Position numbers and translations under genes: made by a program. A stretch of DNA of 42,894 nt from Alphaproteobacteria bacterium (GTDB taxonomy: Bacteria; Pseudomonadota; Alphaproteobacteria; CADEGL01), in assembly GCA_026400755.1 (NCBI GenBank), contig JAPLOM010000027.1, forward strand, positions 84,575 to 127,468, in the 5' to 3' direction. The notes below the pieces were generated by a model. The model ran no database searches. It saw only the letters and a program-made list of their open reading frames with translations, and was not told where the DNA came from. How positions within the stretch are numbered: position 1 is the stretch's first letter; every line of letters starts with the position of its first letter. This document shows, in pieces, positions 1,678 through 33,528 of this stretch.

Positions 1678-2907
1678 ATGAGCGCCCCAGCAATCAACAA
1701 CCGGTTCCTCAAGTGGTTCGACGACCGCCTTCCGGTCGTCAGCTTCATGCAGCACGAACTGCATGAGTACCCCACTCCGAAGAACCTTAACTATTGGTGG
1801 AACTTCGGCTCCCTGGCCGGCATCTGCCTGGTCATCATGATCGCCACAGGCGTCGTCCTGGCCATGCAGTACACGCCGCATGTGAGTCTGGCGTTCCTGT
1901 CGGTCGAGCGCATCATGCGCGACGTCAATTACGGGTGGCTCTTGCGCTACCTGCATATGAACGGCGCGTCGATGTTCTTCCTCGTGGTCTATATCCATGT
2001 CTTCCGCGGTCTTTATTACGGCTCCTACAAGAGCCCGCGCGAGGTTCTGTGGTGGCTGGGCCTGGTCATCCTCCTTCTCATGATGGCCACGGCGTTCATG
2101 GGCTATGTCCTGCCCTGGGGCCAGATGAGCTTCTGGGCCGCGACCGTCATCACCAACCTGTTCTCGGCCTTCCCGTTGGTGGGCGAGCCCATCGTGACCT
2201 GGCTGTGGGGCGGTTTCTCGGTCGACAACCCGACGCTGAACCGCTTCTACGCGCTGCATTACCTCCTGCCCTTCGTCATCGTGGGCGTGGTGGTGTTGCA
2301 CCTGATCGCGCTGCACAAGCACGGCTCCAACAATCCGCTGGGTATCCCGCACAAAGGTCCGCAGGATTCGATCCCCTTCCACCCGTACTACACGGTGAAG
2401 GACCTGTTCGGCCTGGGCGTGTTCTTCATCGTCTATATGGCGTTGGTGTTCTTCGCCCCGAACATGCTGGTCGAGCCGATCAACTATGTGCCGGCCGACC
2501 CGCTGGTCACGCCGCCGCACATCGTGCCGGAGTGGTACTTCCTGCCGTACTACGCGATCCTGCGCTCGATCCCGGACAAGCTGCTTGGCGTCATCGCGAT
2601 GTTCGGCTCGCTCCTGATCCTGTTCGTACTGCCGTGGCTCGACACGTCCAAGGTGCGCAGCGCGCGCTTCCGGCCGATCTACAAGAAGCTGTTCTGGGTG
2701 TTTCTGGCCGACTGCATCATCCTGGGCTGGGTCGGTTACAACCCGCCCGAGGGCCACTTCATCGTCATCGGACAGATCGCGACGGCCTACTACTTCCTCC
2801 ATTTGCTCGTGATCATGCCGATCGTGGGCAAGGTGGAGCGCACGCGGCCGCTTCCCGACAGCATCAGCGCGCCCGTCCTGAAAGGCGCCCACAAGGAGAA
2901 GGCATGA
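1678..2907 (+). CDS. petB: Cytochrome b of the bc1 complex
   Basis: This 409-residue integral membrane protein holds the two b-type haems and the quinol-oxidising and quinone-reducing sites. The paired haem histidines are visible in the helix reading [17 protein letters not shown] and in the second helix containing FYALHYLLP and VLHLIALH. The Qo-site PEWY motif is present ([15 protein letters not shown]), as is [12 protein letters not shown]. Length and motifs suit the full-length alphaproteobacterial form in which the b6 and subunit IV parts are fused. Its stop overlaps the petC start (ATGA). Confidence 0.98.
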
Positions 2908-3677
2908 TGATGCGGGCACGGATCCTTGCCGCCGCGGTTACGGCGGGCCTCGGTCTCGCCCTCGCGGCGCCGGCAAGCGCGGCGGAAGGCAATGTCGAGC
3001 TGCCGAAACAGAATTGGTCGTTCAACGGGCCGTTCGGCACGTTCGACCAGGCCCAGTTGAAGCGCGGCTATCAGGTCTATGGCCAGGTCTGCTCGGCCTG
3101 CCATTCCATGCACCTGCTCTACTACCGGAACCTGATGGATATCGGTTTTTCCGAGGCCCAGGTGAAGGAGATCGCGGCCGGCGTGGAAGTGACCGATGGT
3201 CCCAACGAAGAGGGTGAGATGTTCACCCGCCCGGGCCGTCCGTCCGACCATTTCCGCTCGCCGTTCCCGAACGACAACGCGGCGCGCGCGGCCAACGGCG
3301 GCGCCCTGCCGCCCGATCTCTCGCTCATCATCAAGGCGCGCGAGGGCGGTGCGAACTACGTCTACGGCGTGCTGGCCGGCTTTACCGATCCGCCGGCGGG
3401 CGTCACCGTGCCCCAGGGCATGCACTACAACAAGGTCTTCCCGGGCCACATGATCGCCATGAACCCGCCGCTGTCCGAGGGTCTGGTGGATTACGGCGGG
3501 GAGCCCAAGGCCACCGTGGATCAGATGGCCCAGGACGTGACCGCGTTCCTGGCATGGGCCAGCGAGCCCGAGATGGAGGCGCGCAAGCGCCTCGGCATCA
3601 AGGTGATGCTGTTTCTCATAATCTTCACGGGCATGCTGTATGCGGTGAAGCGCAAGGTCTGGGCAAACATCCACTGA
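2904..3677 (+). CDS. petC: Cytochrome c1 of the bc1 complex
   Basis: This membrane-anchored c-type cytochrome accepts electrons from the Rieske protein and delivers them to soluble cytochrome c. The 257-residue precursor has a Sec signal peptide ending near ASAAEGN. The haem attachment site is CSACH, and the probable axial methionine lies in [11 protein letters not shown] single C-terminal membrane anchor is visible around [20 protein letters not shown]. The start at 2904 overlaps the petB stop by four bases; two further ATG codons follow directly, so the exact start is uncertain by one or two residues. Confidence 0.97.
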
Positions 3678-3701
3678 GCCGGCGGCAAATCTCGGTCTAG
3701 C

Positions 3702-3728
3702 GCCGCCGGAGCGGGCGACTCCGGCGGC
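3702..3728 (+). terminator. Hairpin after petC, probable transcription terminator
   Basis: A perfect 10-bp inverted repeat, GCCGCCGGAG (3702-3711) and CTCCGGCGGC (3719-3728) with a 7-base loop, sits 24 bp after the petC stop. No clear T-run follows, so it may act as a GC-rich terminator or an mRNA-stabilising hairpin rather than a classical intrinsic terminator. Confidence 0.55.
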
Positions 3729-3767
3729 TAGTCCGCCTTAGAAGTCGCCCTCAAAGAGGGGACTGAG

Positions 3768-4640
3768 GTGGGCGAACGTATCATCGGCATCATCGGCGGC
3801 AGCGGCCTCTACGACATCGAGGGCTTCTCCGACGCCAAGTGGCAGACGGTCGAATCGCCGTTCGGCCAGCCCTCCGACCAGCTTCGCGTCGGCATGCTGG
3901 ATGGCCAAAAGGTGGTCTTCCTGCCGCGCCATGGCCGCGGCCACAAAATTCCACCCAGCGAGATCAACTACCGCGCCAATATCGACGCCTTGAAGCGGCT
4001 GGGCGTGACCGATGTGATTTCGGTCAGCGCCGTCGGCTCCCTGCGTGAGGATCTGCCGCCGGGCACCTTCGTCGTCGTCGACCAATTCGTCGACCGCACC
4101 TTCGCGCGGGTGAAAAGCTTTTTCGGCACAGGTTTGGTGGCTCACGTCTCCATGGCCCATCCGGTCTGCGGACGCCTGGGCGACCGTATCGAGGCCGGCG
4201 CGCGGACGTTGGGCATCCCCGTCCATCGCGGCGGCGCCTACCTGGCCATGGAAGGCCCGCAATTCTCGAGCTTGGCCGAATCCGAGCTCTACCGTTCGTG
4301 GAAATGCGCCGTGATCGGCATGACCAACATGCCGGAGGCCAAGCTCGCGCGCGAGGCCGAGCTTTGCTACGCCACGGTCGCCATGGTGACGGACTACGAT
4401 TGCTGGCACGCCGGCCATGACGCCGTCACGGTCGATGCCGTGATCCGCGTGCTGTTGGCCAACGCCGACAAGGCGCGCGCGCTGGTCAAGACCGTGGCGC
4501 CCAAGCTGGGTGGTGAAGCGCATCCTTGCTCCAAGGGCTGCAACATGGCGCTGGAGCATGCGCTCATCACGGCGCCCGAGGCGCGCGACCCGAAAATGGT
4601 CGAGCGTTTGCGCGCCGTCGCTGGTCGCGTCCTCAAGTGA
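3768..4640 (+). CDS. mtnP: S-methyl-5'-thioadenosine phosphorylase
   Basis: MtnP splits methylthioadenosine (MTA), the by-product of polyamine synthesis, into adenine and 5-methylthioribose-1-phosphate. The 290-residue protein shows the family blocks IGIIGGSGLYD, LPRHGRGHKIPPSEINYRAN, VSAVGSLRE, MEGPQFSSLAESELYRSW and MTNMPEAKLAREAELCY. The start is GTG at 3768. Its stop overlaps the GTG of the following class II aldolase, which suggests that the two act together on the MTA carbon skeleton. speD about 4 kb away would supply the source pathway. Confidence 0.95.
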   Translation: MGERIIGIIGGSGLYDIEGFSDAKWQTVESPFGQPSDQLRVGMLDGQKVVFLPRHGRGHKIPPSEINYRANIDALKRLGVTDVISVSAVGSLREDLPPGTFVVVDQFVDRTFARVKSFFGTGLVAHVSMAHPVCGRLGDRIEAGARTLGIPVHRGGAYLAMEGPQFSSLAESELYRSWKCAVIGMTNMPEAKLAREAELCYATVAMVTDYDCWHAGHDAVTVDAVIRVLLANADKARALVKTVAPKLGGEAHPCSKGCNMALEHALITAPEARDPKMVERLRAVAGRVLK

Positions 4641-5293
4641 GCGACGCCCTGCGCCGCGCGATGATCGCGGCCGCACGGCGGATGAACGAACTCGGCATCA
4701 ATCAGGGTACCTCGGGCAATATCGGCGTGGGCTGGCGCGGCGGCTTCCTGGTCACGCCGTCCGGCATGGAATATGAGCACCTGAAGCCGGCCGACATCGT
4801 GGCCATGGACATGGACGGAAATCCGTCCGGCCGGCGTAAGCCGTCCAGCGAGTGGCGCATCCACCGCGACATCCTGGCGGCACGTCCCGAAGCGGGCGCG
4901 GTCGTCCATGCCCATCCGCCCTATGCCACGACCCTGGCGTGCCTCGGCCGCGGCATTCCGTCGTTCCACTACATGGTGGCCATGGCGGGCGGCGATTCGA
5001 TCCGCTGCGCGCCCTACCAGACCTTTGGCACGGAGGCGCTGTCCAAAGCCGCTCTGGCGGCCCTGCGCGACCGCAGGGCGTGCCTCCTGGCCAACCATGG
5101 GTTGGTTGCGTTCGGCCGGGACATTCCCCACGCGTTGCGCATCGCGGTCGAGGTCGAGACACTGGCGGGCCAGTACTGGCGCGCGCTTCAGATCGGGCGG
5201 CCAAAGCTTCTGTCGAAGGCCGAGATGAACGTGGTGATCGAGAAGTTCAAGACCTACGGCGTTCAGCCCAAGCGCACGCCGCGCCGGCCGTGA
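4637..5293 (+). CDS. Class II aldolase/adducin-family protein, possibly methylthioribulose-1-phosphate aldolase
   Basis: Class II aldolases of the fuculose-1-phosphate type are zinc enzymes that cleave ketose phosphates to DHAP and an aldehyde. The 218-residue protein has GTSGNIGVGW, a phosphate-binding-type loop, the HAHPPYA pair of zinc histidines near residues 92-94, and a further histidine in LLANHGLVAFG. The GTG start at 4637 overlaps the mtnP stop (GTGA). In Rhodospirillum rubrum a related aldolase cleaves 5-methylthioribulose-1-phosphate after MtnP and MtnA. Coupling to mtnP makes that role attractive here, but the substrate is inferred; MtnB-like dehydratase or another sugar-phosphate aldolase remain possible. 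Confidence 0.82.
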   Translation: MSDALRRAMIAAARRMNELGINQGTSGNIGVGWRGGFLVTPSGMEYEHLKPADIVAMDMDGNPSGRRKPSSEWRIHRDILAARPEAGAVVHAHPPYATTLACLGRGIPSFHYMVAMAGGDSIRCAPYQTFGTEALSKAALAALRDRRACLLANHGLVAFGRDIPHALRIAVEVETLAGQYWRALQIGRPKLLSKAEMNVVIEKFKTYGVQPKRTPRRP

Positions 5294-6150
5294 GCGCGAT
5301 CACCGGCATCGACCACACGCTGATCGGCGTGCGCGATTTGGAGAAGGCGCGCGCGTCCTATGCGCGCCTCGGATTCACCCCATGCCCGCGCGGCAGCCAT
5401 ATCGGCTGGGGTACCGCCAATTACTGCCTGATGTTCCCGGACGACTATGTGGAGATTTTGGGCATCGTCGACCCGTCCCAGTTCACCAACAACCTGGACG
5501 CGTTCCTGGCCAAGCGTGAAGGGTTGATGGGGTTGGCCTGGGCGACGCGGGATGGGAACGCGGTGAAGGCCGAGTTGGAGCGCGCCGGCATCGCGGCCGA
5601 TGGGCCGAAGGATCTGAAACGCCGTCTGGAGTTGCCCGAGGGCACGGTCCTGCCCGAGTTCAAGCTGGTCTACCCGAGCCCGGGCGCCACGCCCTCCTTG
5701 GCCAGTTTCGTGTGCCAGCATCTGACGCCTGATCTTCTGCGGCGGCCGGAATGGTTGGCTCATCCCAATGGCGCGAACGGCCTCGTCGGCATCACCGTCG
5801 CGGTCGAGGATTCCAGCGGCCTGGCGGCCGCCTATGGGCGCGTTTTCGGCATGGGTGCCGTGACGCGCACCGACGACACGGTCGTGGTGCGGGTTGGGCC
5901 GCATGTGGTGATGTTCGCGCCCAGCGAGGCGCTGGACCTGTTGCATCCCGGTTTCGAATTGCCGGCGGGCGCTGAGTTGCCGCTGGCGGCCGTGATGACC
6001 GTGGCGGTGGCCGACCTGGCCAAGACCTCGTCGTTCTTGCGCGGGCGAAGCATCCAGCACGACGACGTCGAGGGCCAGGCCATCATGGTGCCGCCGTCCC
6101 AGGCTTGCGGCGTGTGGCTCGAATTCGTCGCGCGCCCAGCCAAAAACTAA
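5290..6150 (+). CDS. Glyoxalase-like (VOC-fold) protein
   Basis: This 286-residue protein begins with a glyoxalase/bleomycin-resistance fold: ITGIDHTLIGVRDLEKA, followed by ANYCLMFPDDYVEILG. A second, weaker repeat starts near GLVGITVAVEDSSGLAAAY and ends with ACGVWLEFVARP. Two-repeat proteins of this kind resemble the Glyoxalase_3 family. The histidine in GIDH and the glutamate in VEILG could be metal ligands. The GTG start overlaps the aldolase stop by four bases, making it the third gene of the mtnP unit. A role in handling an aldehyde or sulfur metabolite is only a guess from context. Confidence 0.75.
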   Translation: MSAITGIDHTLIGVRDLEKARASYARLGFTPCPRGSHIGWGTANYCLMFPDDYVEILGIVDPSQFTNNLDAFLAKREGLMGLAWATRDGNAVKAELERAGIAADGPKDLKRRLELPEGTVLPEFKLVYPSPGATPSLASFVCQHLTPDLLRRPEWLAHPNGANGLVGITVAVEDSSGLAAAYGRVFGMGAVTRTDDTVVVRVGPHVVMFAPSEALDLLHPGFELPAGAELPLAAVMTVAVADLAKTSSFLRGRSIQHDDVEGQAIMVPPSQACGVWLEFVARPAKN

Positions 6151-8446: not shown

Positions 8447-8971
8447 TTAAGTAATGATACCGCGCTTGTGCTCAGAGATTTGCACCTGCCCAGCCTGAAG
8501 CGCGCGCTTCATGGCCGGCACCGCATCGTGCGGATTGCAGGCGCCGCACATGAACACATCAATGGCGGCATAGCCCCGTTCGGGCCAGGTGTGGATGCTG
8601 ATATGCGACTCCGCGAGCAGCGCCAGGCCCGACAGGCCGCAGTTGGGCCCGAAGTGGTGGAGCTTCACGTCGAGCAAGGTTGCGCCGGCCGCTTCCGCGG
8701 CTTCACGCATCATCGCGTCGACGATCTCGATGTTGTCGAGATTCTTGGCATCCCACAATTCGACGATCAGATGCCGTCCCGCGAACAGGAGACCGTCCTG
8801 CTCGATGAAGTAGCCCTTCACGTCGTTAATTTTCGCTTCTGACGGCCTCGTTCCGTCTTCGAGCACCCGTTCCTTCGAAACCACCTTCGGAACGAGCTTA
8901 GGCTTTTGCCTGTCTGGAACGTTACGAGCCGTTGTCGGCCGCTGTCCAGAAACGGCTAAGGAAGCGTTCAT
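8447..8971 (-). CDS. speD: S-adenosylmethionine decarboxylase proenzyme
   Basis: SpeD decarboxylates SAM to give the aminopropyl donor for spermidine. It is made as a proenzyme that cleaves itself at Glu-Ser to create a pyruvoyl group. Here the site is LLAES-HISIHTWPE, with cleavage between residues 121 and 122. The catalytic HTWPERG and MCGACNP segments follow. The 174-residue protein is longer than the roughly 120-130 residues typical of class 1B SpeD, because of an Arg/Lys-rich extension of about 50 residues. ATG at 8971 is preceded by GGTGGAGGTT. No speE is adjacent. MTA produced downstream would feed mtnP. Confidence 0.94.
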   Translation of the reverse strand: MNASLAVSGQRPTTARNVPDRQKPKLVPKVVSKERVLEDGTRPSEAKINDVKGYFIEQDGLLFAGRHLIVELWDAKNLDNIEIVDAMMREAAEAAGATLLDVKLHHFGPNCGLSGLALLAESHISIHTWPERGYAAIDVFMCGACNPHDAVPAMKRALQAGQVQISEHKRGIIT

Positions 8972-9045
8972 GCGCAATTGAACCTCCACCGTAACCAGAT
9001 TGTAGTAAGGGGGGTAAATAGATGGATTGCGGACTTGAACACAAG

Positions 9046-32176: not shown

Positions 32177-33485
32177 TTGGCCCAGAAATGGCAGCTCGAT
32201 AGCTGGCGGGCAAAGCCCGTGCAGCAAGCGCCGGTCTATCCAGACCCGGCCGCGCTGAAGGCGATGGAAACGCGCCTCCGGCGGGTGCCGCCTTTGGTCT
32301 TCGCGGGCGAGGCGCGCCGGCTGAAGGCGTCCTTGGCCAAGGTCGCCGACGGGAAGGCTTTTCTGCTTCAGGGCGGCGACTGTGCGGAAAGCTTCGCCGA
32401 ATTCCACCCCGACAACATCCGCGACACGTTCCGCGTCCTGCTGCAGATGGCCGTGGTGCTGACCTATGGCGCCGCGTGCCCGGTGGTGAAGGTCGGCCGC
32501 CTGGCCGGCCAGTTCGCCAAGCCGCGCTCGGCGCCGACCGAGAAGATCGGCGACGTAGAGTTGCCGGCCTATCGCGGCGACATCGTTAACAACCTGGATT
32601 TCACGCCCGAGTCGCGCACGCCCGACCCGGAACGGCTGATGCTGGCCTACAGTCAGGCGGCGGCCACGCTCAACCTTCTGCGCGCCTTCGCCCAGGGCGG
32701 CTATGCCGACCTGCACCAGGTGCATCGCTGGAACATGGGCTTCGTCTCCCGCAGTCCCCAGGGCGCGCGTTACCAGGAAATGGCGGCCCGGCTGACCGAA
32801 ACGCTCAACTTCATGGAAGCGTGCGGGCTTACGTCCGAGACGACGCCGCAGATCCGCGAGACGGATTTCTTCACCTCGCACGAGGCGCTGCTGCTGCCGT
32901 ATGAGGAGGCGCTGACGCGCGTCGATTCGACGAGCGGCGATTGGTACGACGTCTCGGCCCACATGCTGTGGATCGGCGACCGCACGCGCCAGATCGACGG
33001 CGCGCATGTCGAGTTCCTGCGCGGCGTGAAGAACCCGATCGGCCTCAAATGCGGCCCATCCATGGAGCCGGACGGATTGTTGAAGCTGATCGACGTCTTG
33101 AACCCGGAGAACGAGCCCGGCCGCCTGACGCTGATCGCGCGCATGGGCTCGGACAAGGTCGATACCAAGCTGGCGCCGTTGATCCGCGCGGTTCATCGCG
33201 AAGGCCGCTCGGTCGTGTGGTCTTGCGACCCCATGCACGGCAATACGATCAAGTCTTCGACCGGCTACAAGACCCGTCCGTTCGATCGCGTCCTGGCCGA
33301 AGTGCGTGGCTTCTTCGCCGTCCATCAGGCCGAGGGCACCTATGCCGGCGGCATCCATCTGGAGCTGACGGGCCAGGACGTCACCGAATGCCTCGCAATC
33401 CTTGGAGCTCGCGTTCCTTGTCGCCGAAGCCCTCAAACACGAGCGGAGCGAACTCGATCGACGCCGCGTCGCCGCCGCGTCCTGA
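32177..33485 (+). pseudogene. aroG: Class II DAHP synthase, internally deleted and frameshifted
   Basis: The intact enzyme joins phosphoenolpyruvate and erythrose-4-phosphate to start the shikimate pathway. Reading begins at TTG 32177 after a good GGAGGAG site and matches class II DAHP synthase for 405 residues, including GGDCAESF (metal ligand C69), CDPMHGNT (H354) and [12 protein letters not shown] (E396). Directly after VTEC the conserved block with GGA, DRYHT and CDPRLN is absent. The normal C-terminus, [17 protein letters not shown], resumes in another frame (33387-33485). The block lost carries the fourth metal ligand (Asp). In the original frame translation continues with unrelated residues to 33520. 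This is either real inactivation or an assembly error; another DAHP synthase elsewhere would be needed for prototrophy. Confidence 0.85.
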
Positions 33486-33528
33486 GTCGCCCTCCGCCGA
33501 TCCGTCCAACCATCCCCTAGGCGTACCC

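Follow-up and report, generated by a model that had tools for sequence, protein, structure and literature searches.

Gene Organization of the Locus

Three overlapping genes were analyzed in a 42,894-nucleotide stretch of alphaproteobacterial DNA (assembly GCA_026400755.1, contig JAPLOM010000027.1, positions 84,575 to 127,468, forward strand), which is referred to below as the window and numbered from its first nucleotide. The first gene, mtnP, encodes 5'-methylthioadenosine (MTA) phosphorylase (3768–4640, plus strand, GTG start, 290 amino acids). It is followed on the same strand by a class II aldolase gene (4637–5293, GTG start, 218 amino acids) and by a gene for a VOC protein of the Glyoxalase_3 family (5290–6150, GTG start, 286 amino acids). 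Very probably, mtnP and the overlapping aldolase gene provide two steps of the known dihydroxyacetone phosphate (DHAP) shunt, and the VOC gene is their neighbor in a conserved gene block. The pathway, which turns MTA, formed as a by-product when polyamines are made, into a sugar phosphate and an aldehyde, has been published for Rhodospirillum rubrum and Rhodopseudomonas palustris (PMC5893883), Bacillus thuringiensis (PMC6079011), and E. coli (PMC10986504), so the window represents a further instance of it.

Both gene junctions consist of a GTGA overlap on the plus strand, joining the mtnP stop to the aldolase start at 4637–4640 and the aldolase stop to the VOC start at 5290–5293. This arrangement had been described in an earlier sequence-only reading, and its coordinates and content were confirmed by the reading frames and the family scores. 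MtnP reached 520.7 bits against NF006492 (cut-off 437) and 308.2 bits against TIGR01694 (cut-off 274.85), the aldolase 192.4 bits against PF00596, and the VOC protein 127.9 bits against PF13468 (gathering cut-off 25.1). From its PF00596 match, its FucA catalytic residues, and its gene context, the aldolase is most likely an Ald2/DrdA-like enzyme acting on 5-(methylthio)ribulose-1-phosphate or 5-deoxyribulose-1-phosphate. The order mtnP, aldolase, VOC, with or without mtnA in between, was found in 14 of 80 named VOC loci (the best 80 of 342) and in loci of further relatives, and because of this recurrence it is not attributable to chance.

The petABC genes lie directly upstream of the three genes, on the same strand. 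The Rieske iron–sulfur protein gene petA (1107–1664) belongs to the open reading frame (ORF) 951–1664, with a presumed start and with homologues equally placed in related loci. The cytochrome b gene petB (1678–2907) was recognized as an ORF and by tblastn in related loci. The cytochrome c1 gene petC (2904–3677), named by eye, lies in the frame of ORF 1794–3677 and carries a CSACH haem motif, its presumed ATG overlapping the petB stop. Folding of the petC–mtnP intergenic segment (3678–3767, plus strand) revealed a GC-rich stem-loop of −44.1 kcal/mol (z −2.16, with 5 of 200 shuffles equally low). A terminator at this position was considered and rejected, as the stem-loop lacks a T run and no terminator-like site was listed there. 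Outside the operon, the S-adenosylmethionine decarboxylase gene speD, a possible source of MTA already noted in the sequence-only reading, was verified at 8447–8989 on the minus strand (PF02675, 122.6 bits).

MTA-Salvage Genes in the Genome and the Predicted Pathway

The genome containing the window comprises 3.36 Mb in 87 contigs and was rated 100% complete. The isomerase gene mtnA, correctly reported as missing from the window, was found as a single copy on another contig (C50), with 420.9 bits against TIGR00512 (cut-off 279). Searches of the genome for mtnC and for acireductone dioxygenase (mtnD) yielded no match; when applied to 14 control genomes, the mtnD and mtnC searches gave matches in 5 and 7 of them, respectively, exceeding the cut-off in just 2 and 1. 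Seven class II aldolases were detected, including that of the window. The scan for mtnB covered the window aldolase and five of the other six (all except a paralogue in L008), yielding 70.4 bits for the former and 31.8–40.6 bits for the latter against a TIGR03328 cut-off of 137.05. To the extent covered by these searches, the genome does not encode the ordinary mtnBCD cycle, mtnC and mtnD being unmatched and every scanned aldolase scoring well short of the mtnB cut-off.

Gene identities, active-site residues, gene context, the lack of mtnC and mtnD matches, and the presence of mtnA were all obtained by computation. The substrate of the aldolase, its direction, and its product are what we infer for the following route. 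MtnP would phosphorolyse MTA, and probably also 5'-deoxyadenosine, to adenine and a 5-substituted ribose-1-phosphate. MtnA, encoded elsewhere, would isomerise the latter to the corresponding ribulose-1-phosphate, and the aldolase would cleave this compound into DHAP and 2-(methylthio)acetaldehyde (or acetaldehyde).

Gene Context of the Aldolase in Related Genomes

Orthologues of the aldolase (E ≤ 1e-30) were found in 47 of 142 relatives, and genes were counted as linked if they shared a strand and were no more than 300 bp apart. The aldolase neighbored mtnA in 27 of the 47 genomes (with mtnP also present within 3 kb in 16 of them) and had mtnP as its sole linked neighbor in a further 7, so that it stood next to one or the other in 34 of 47. 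The presence of the genes followed the same pattern: mtnA occurred in 40 of the 47 aldolase-bearing genomes versus 25 of the other 95 (Fisher p 1.9e-11), and mtnP in 42 of 47 versus 30 of 95 (p 2.5e-11), both values being calculated with kinship ignored.

The assignment of mtnP and the aldolase to the DHAP shunt is thus well supported by gene context. The case rests on this context and on the absence of mtnC and mtnD matches, not on the phylogenetic tree. The MTA shunt proposed in the sequence-only reading was therefore upheld as regards mtnA, the unmatched mtnC and mtnD, and the 34 linked genomes; it is qualified by a second exit through a RubisCO-like protein and a cupin, and by a grouping with FucA that was not rejected, both described below.

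An alphaproteobacterial petB–mtnP–mtnA–aldolase–VOC order was also seen on contig L095, named Phormidium willei, a cyanobacterium; this contig is probably a contaminant.

An Apparent Second Exit for Methylthioribulose-1-Phosphate

A RubisCO-like protein (RLP) of 362 amino acids is encoded on contig C29, with a Cupin_2 gene directly adjacent (L174:6989-8552). Among solved structures, it scored highest against 3qfw (434.8 bits, the next reaching 117.2 bits). The latter is R. palustris RLP1 (DeepYkr), a label that is putative for the RLP of this genome. Against the MtnW model the protein scored 106 bits, far under the cut-off of 513.6. RLP was found at E ≤ 1e-30 in 7 of 142 relatives, all seven of which also have mtnA (p 0.0035). 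A thiamine-diphosphate-type enzyme and an F420 hydrogenase beta-like ORF, both named by eye, adjoin the RLP–cupin pair on C29.

RLP and cupin form the gene pair of the MTA-isoprenoid shunt (PMC4958253, PMC5893883), which here would constitute a parallel exit outside the operon of the window. Since this pair is also encoded, the aldolase is not the sole exit for methylthioribulose-1-phosphate, a circumstance that detracts from the DHAP-shunt assignment. A comparable situation is described for R. palustris, in which ald2 lies apart from mtnP–mtnA and RLP and cupin are present (PMC5893883). Judging from its gene content, the cell from which the window derives seems, like R. palustris, to have two exits for this compound.

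The most serious alternative is built on this duality. The operon could serve mainly 5'-deoxyadenosine, a by-product of radical S-adenosylmethionine enzymes, which would end up as DHAP and acetaldehyde in the manner of DrdA of Bacillus thuringiensis, with MTA being left to RLP and cupin. This explanation overlaps with the DHAP shunt for MTA and differs from it in the main substrate. Enzymes of these types are described in the salvage of 5-deoxyribose (PMC6079011), those of the E. coli shunt are stated to accept either substrate (PMC10986504), and the RLP–cupin pair for MTA is at hand in the same genome. However, with RLP in only 7 of 142 relatives, most genomes carrying the aldolase cannot divide the work in this way, and mtnP and mtnA are common to the 5'-deoxyadenosine and MTA routes. 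We consider a predominant role in 5'-deoxyadenosine disposal possible but clearly less likely than one including MTA.

Sequence and Phylogeny of the Aldolase

Alternatively, the gene after mtnP could encode an ordinary L-fuculose-1-phosphate aldolase (FucA), or an aldolase for another sugar phosphate, that became coupled to mtnP by chance. The best NCBIfam matches of the window aldolase are indeed FucA models, and every position of E. coli FucA that we take to be a metal ligand or the catalytic Glu or Tyr is conserved in it. The scores, however, remained below all three FucA cut-offs (227.3 versus 264, 208.7 versus 264, and 203.1 versus 400.25 bits).

Two phylogenetic trees were constructed, of 74 and 71 rows, with E. 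coli FucA and E. coli Ald2 as characterised references. The rows were non-identical tblastn spans of about 160 residues containing no stop; L039_1501 was removed as a duplicate of the window, and L099_7943, L201, and L163_1021 were removed before the 71-row tree. Eight alphaproteobacterial aldolases lacking an mtnA or mtnP neighbor in the flanks examined grouped with E. coli FucA and Ald2 in either tree, with support of 97/84 and 99/92 in the 71-row tree, where the bootstrap had not settled. The flanks of four of these eight unlinked rows covered only about 1.5 kb per side. Of the eight neighborhoods, four were scanned: two contained a sugar kinase (FGGY in one, PfkB in the other), a third a permease together with a solute-binding protein, and the fourth an enzyme of the mandelate-racemase family. 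Neither tree placed the window aldolase within the FucA group, nor was E. coli Ald2 its closest relative by tree or by identity.

Several results weigh against the shunt assignment at this point. The window aldolase is 47–49% identical to E. coli FucA and 43% identical to E. coli Ald2, the two E. coli enzymes being 58% identical to each other. The approximately unbiased (AU) test did not reject a position of the window aldolase inside the FucA group (p-AU 0.441, at a cost of 5.1 log units). The mtnA-linked row L178 adjoined the FucA group (81/89), and seven unlinked rows fell outside it. The backbone of the tree was poorly resolved, with the linked or unlinked state switching at least eight times, and the linked aldolases were not demonstrated as one clade. 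In addition, the aldolase stood beside neither mtnA nor mtnP in 13 of the 47 genomes, and no mtnA match was obtained in 7 of them.

The phylogenetic comparison suggested by the sequence-only reading accordingly gave a divided answer, a placement apart from the FucA group in either tree on the one hand and an AU test compatible with joining it on the other. Sequence evidence for the substrate of the aldolase is weak. Taking into account the sub-threshold FucA scores, the tree position, and the 34 of 47 genomes in which the orthologue adjoins mtnA or mtnP, an ordinary FucA coupled to mtnP by chance appears improbable.

A residue signature distinguishing shunt aldolases from FucA was also sought and abandoned, because a single column (FucA position 115) reached the 75% criterion, which is too little. 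At this position, V was present in 42 of 49 linked rows and I in the other 7, compared with I in 9 of 9 FucA-side rows; both E. coli Ald2 and the window aldolase carry V.

As a separate observation, E. coli Ald2 (L090:30370-31011) groups with E. coli FucA (L091:42-689) and not with the mtnA-linked alphaproteobacterial aldolases. This placement suggests that shunt aldolases may have arisen more than once.

Neighborhood and Structure of the VOC Protein

The surroundings of the VOC gene were compared in the 80 named loci. Upstream on the same strand, cytochrome b was present in 55 loci, mtnP in 55, apt in 18, the aldolase in 15, and mtnA in 14, with ychF downstream and convergent in 43. When the comparison was restricted to the 60 loci in which 5 kb or more was available upstream of the VOC gene, the corresponding values were 45, 41, 11, 11, and 11, and none of these five genes was found in 6 loci. 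Cytochrome b was present without an upstream mtnP match in 14 of the 80 loci and in 13 of the 60, in one of which (L098) cytochrome b lay 5.4 kb away.

As cytochrome b, mtnP, and ychF recur around it, the VOC gene is part of a conserved block, individual members of which drop out. The block comprises trmL–hemF, petABC, mtnP, apt, mtnA, the aldolase, VOC, and convergent DLH–ychF–pth–rplY–prs, most of these names having been given by eye. The order in the window is a reduced form of its alphaproteobacterial core petABC–mtnP–apt–mtnA–aldolase–VOC. Among culturable relatives, Tistlia has the block with mtnP, mtnA, and the aldolase, and Skermanella has it with mtnP missing from the locus. In four loci, from two Skermanella, Arenibaculum, and an Azospirillaceae metagenome-assembled genome, a DUF924 gene stood directly before the VOC gene (L104:6456-7001, L139:6432-6977, L098:6447-6989, and L100:4587-5132).

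According to the sequence-only reading, the VOC protein could act on the aldehyde or on a related thiol product. Such a pathway enzyme, with 2-(methylthio)acetaldehyde, 2-(methylthio)ethanol, or a thiol adduct as its substrate, would agree with the overlap with the aldolase gene and with the 55 of 80 loci in which mtnP precedes the VOC gene on its strand. It would also agree with co-occurrence across genomes: VOC was accompanied by mtnP in 25 of 29 genomes at a threshold of at least 150 bits (p 1.7e-5; p 0.0044 at 200 bits) and by mtnA in 24 of 29 (p 7e-6). Through its co-occurrence with mtnP, the VOC protein may thus retain some link to MTA.

In contrast, co-occurrence with the aldolase was weak, at 15 of 29 genomes (p 0.026) at 150 bits and 9 of 18 (p 0.11) at 200 bits. 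Three genomes (G041, G044, and G106), in which the VOC gene follows cytochrome b at 1.1–2.1 kb, gave no match to mtnP, mtnA, or the aldolase at the thresholds used. An MTA/S-adenosylhomocysteine nucleosidase scored over the cut-off in G041 and G044, where the scan covered all PNP_UDP matches except the third of each genome; G106 gave no PNP_UDP-family match at all.

A role in the shunt was set aside as the principal interpretation, as the VOC gene stays near petABC where mtnP, mtnA, and the aldolase have no match. The block makes a pathway enzyme unlikely, and we regard one acting on the aldehyde, the alcohol, or a thiol adduct as having very little probability. The VOC gene is rather a positional neighbor of the old petABC block, and its function is probably independent of MTA.

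The AlphaFold model of the VOC protein (mean pLDDT 95.4) displayed four VOC modules by eye. The nearest fold was PDB 3p8a, a hypothetical protein of S. aureus (Z 22.6, 2.5 Å over 231 residues), followed by folds of the 4-hydroxyphenylpyruvate dioxygenase (HPPD) type (Z of about 20–21, 3.2–3.5 Å, about 260 residues). Identity to the listed structural matches was only 12–17%, and a sequence search of the PDB returned a single match at chance level (E 0.29).

Residue conservation was evaluated in an alignment of 54 sequences, containing a chosen 53 of the 80 named loci, with L171 excluded for a stop in its match. H9, H37, E55, and H144 were invariant and H158 was present in 53 of 54, whereas no His of the window protein beyond position 158 of its 286 residues was conserved at the criterion of at least 80%. 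HPPD holds its iron site in the C-terminal domain. An HPPD-like dioxygenase was therefore rejected: the fold is similar, but the two conserved C-terminal His of that type are not kept. A metal site would lie in the N-terminal domain, and the protein is probably a metal-dependent enzyme with a chemistry independent of MTA.

Least probable of all, and close to negligible, is the idea that the window aldolase is MtnB, the methylthioribulose-1-phosphate dehydratase of ordinary methionine salvage, which shares the class II aldolase fold and whose model TIGR03328 does match, but at the 70.4 bits given above, well under the cut-off, in a genome with no mtnC or mtnD match.

An Aldolase/Short-Chain-Dehydrogenase Fusion in Relatives

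Both mtnP and mtnA were present in 59 relatives, in 22 of which the small aldolase was missing. Stretches around mtnA, mtnP, or both were inspected in all 22 genomes, and in 13 of them (G008, G011, G029, G033, G037, G048, G060, G079, G082, G091, G097, G108, and G131) a fusion of a class II aldolase with a short-chain dehydrogenase (SDR) was found near mtnA or mtnP on the same strand. The distance to mtnA, mtnP, or apt was at most 100 bp in 10 genomes, and in G008, G060, and G082 the fusion lay 0.6–1.7 kb from mtnA. In the other 9 genomes, it was not seen around mtnA or mtnP, two of the nine stretches being short.

The fusion stood directly before the VOC gene in 7 of the 80 named loci (L106, L135, L144, L150, L153, L155, and L170). 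Copies located between mtnP/mtnA and VOC are L135:4728-6782, L150:2817-5015, L170:4704-6989, L153:4669-6948, L076:8561-10618, and L250:7156-9186. In five copies that were scanned, the match to NF006192 (bifunctional aldolase/short-chain dehydrogenase, with no substrate named) reached 825–1098 bits (cut-off 639), and the same copies remained below the cut-off of the rhamnulose-1-phosphate aldolase fusion model TIGR02632 (404–494 versus 567.75 bits). At 200 bits or more, the fusion was absent from all 77 loci examined around the small aldolase and in the genome of the window (64 around small-aldolase matches, with some genomes represented twice, and 13 of the window's genome). By BLAST, its aldolase domain and the window aldolase were not significantly similar.

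Reduction of 2-(methylthio)acetaldehyde is left to a putative alcohol dehydrogenase in PMC5893883, and for this step the fusion offers a concrete candidate. A shunt variant may be sketched in which the fusion replaces the small aldolase in the order mtnP–(apt)–mtnA–[slot]–VOC, and in which a fused SDR or, in the family of the window, a free one directly after mtnA handles the aldehyde. We put this forward tentatively, as an idea that is somewhat more likely to fail than to hold. Its chief risk is the configuration at C4: RhaD-type aldolases differ in it, and for 5-deoxyribulose-1-phosphate 3R,4R has been inferred (PMC6079011). The fusion as an aldehyde-handling dehydrogenase is a lead.

The genome of the window itself carries a free SDR gene 14 bp after mtnA (L175:6387-8260, on C50), with further SDRs in the region. 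An SDR directly after mtnA was found in four members of the family to which the window belongs, the homologues being 96% identical in G001, 72% in G002, and, in G003, 51% for a first copy followed by 58% for a second. The free SDR shares only 28% identity with the fused domain, further SDRs are located nearby, and G002 has the SDR without the aldolase, all of which speaks against its proposed role. A general pairing of mtnA with SDR was rejected, since 12 of 15 mtnA stretches outside this family had no match to the SDR (E 1e-12).

Relation to Published Systems

The three enzymes of the shunt have been reported in about 6.5% of sequenced bacteria in KEGG (PMC5893883). Clusters of a kinase or phosphorylase, an isomerase, and a FucA-like aldolase occur in six phyla, their aldolases and canonical FucA forming separate clades (PMC6079011). 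As in R. rubrum and R. palustris, the MTA phosphorylase, the methylthioribose-1-phosphate isomerase, and the class II aldolase are all encoded in the genome studied here. Unlike the shunt genes of those two organisms, the window aldolase overlaps mtnP, mtnA is located elsewhere, petABC precedes the genes, and VOC follows them. R. rubrum ald2 shares an operon with Rru_A0360/A0361, the R. palustris enzyme is RPA4655, and an R. palustris mutant without ald2 and rlp1 has been described (PMC5893883).

In the drdK/drdI/drdA cluster for 5-deoxyribose and its phosphorylase variants (PMC6079011), a FucA-like aldolase is likewise associated with an isomerase and a kinase or phosphorylase. The window cluster contains neither an isomerase nor a kinase. 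The E. coli mtnK–mtnA–ald2 cluster (PMC10986504; S88 locus) also links a FucA-like aldolase to mtnA, with a kinase in place of the phosphorylase of the window. E. coli Ald2 falls inside the FucA group, and it may therefore have arisen independently. Of 5426 complete E. coli genomes, 1224 matched the stretch that carries this cluster (L090:27955-31011).

In the literature searched, which left subscription papers mostly outside, no work was found that connects MTA with the aldolase/SDR fusion or with VOC proteins of this family, and no report of the petABC-linked order, of the VOC neighbor, or of the fusion in a shunt role was found. The core of the locus is ordinary, and the additions are the correction concerning VOC and one lead, the fusion, outside the window. 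With the window, one more alphaproteobacterium joins the published pathway, and its genome apparently offers methylthioribulose-1-phosphate two known exits. The gene block further provides a context criterion that may separate shunt aldolases from FucA where annotation names both FucA.

Elsewhere in the window, the class II 3-deoxy-D-arabino-heptulosonate 7-phosphate synthase gene at 32177–33520 gave a profile match ending at position 403 of 438, and the last 40 residues of the product look out of frame, which points to a possible frameshift or assembly error.

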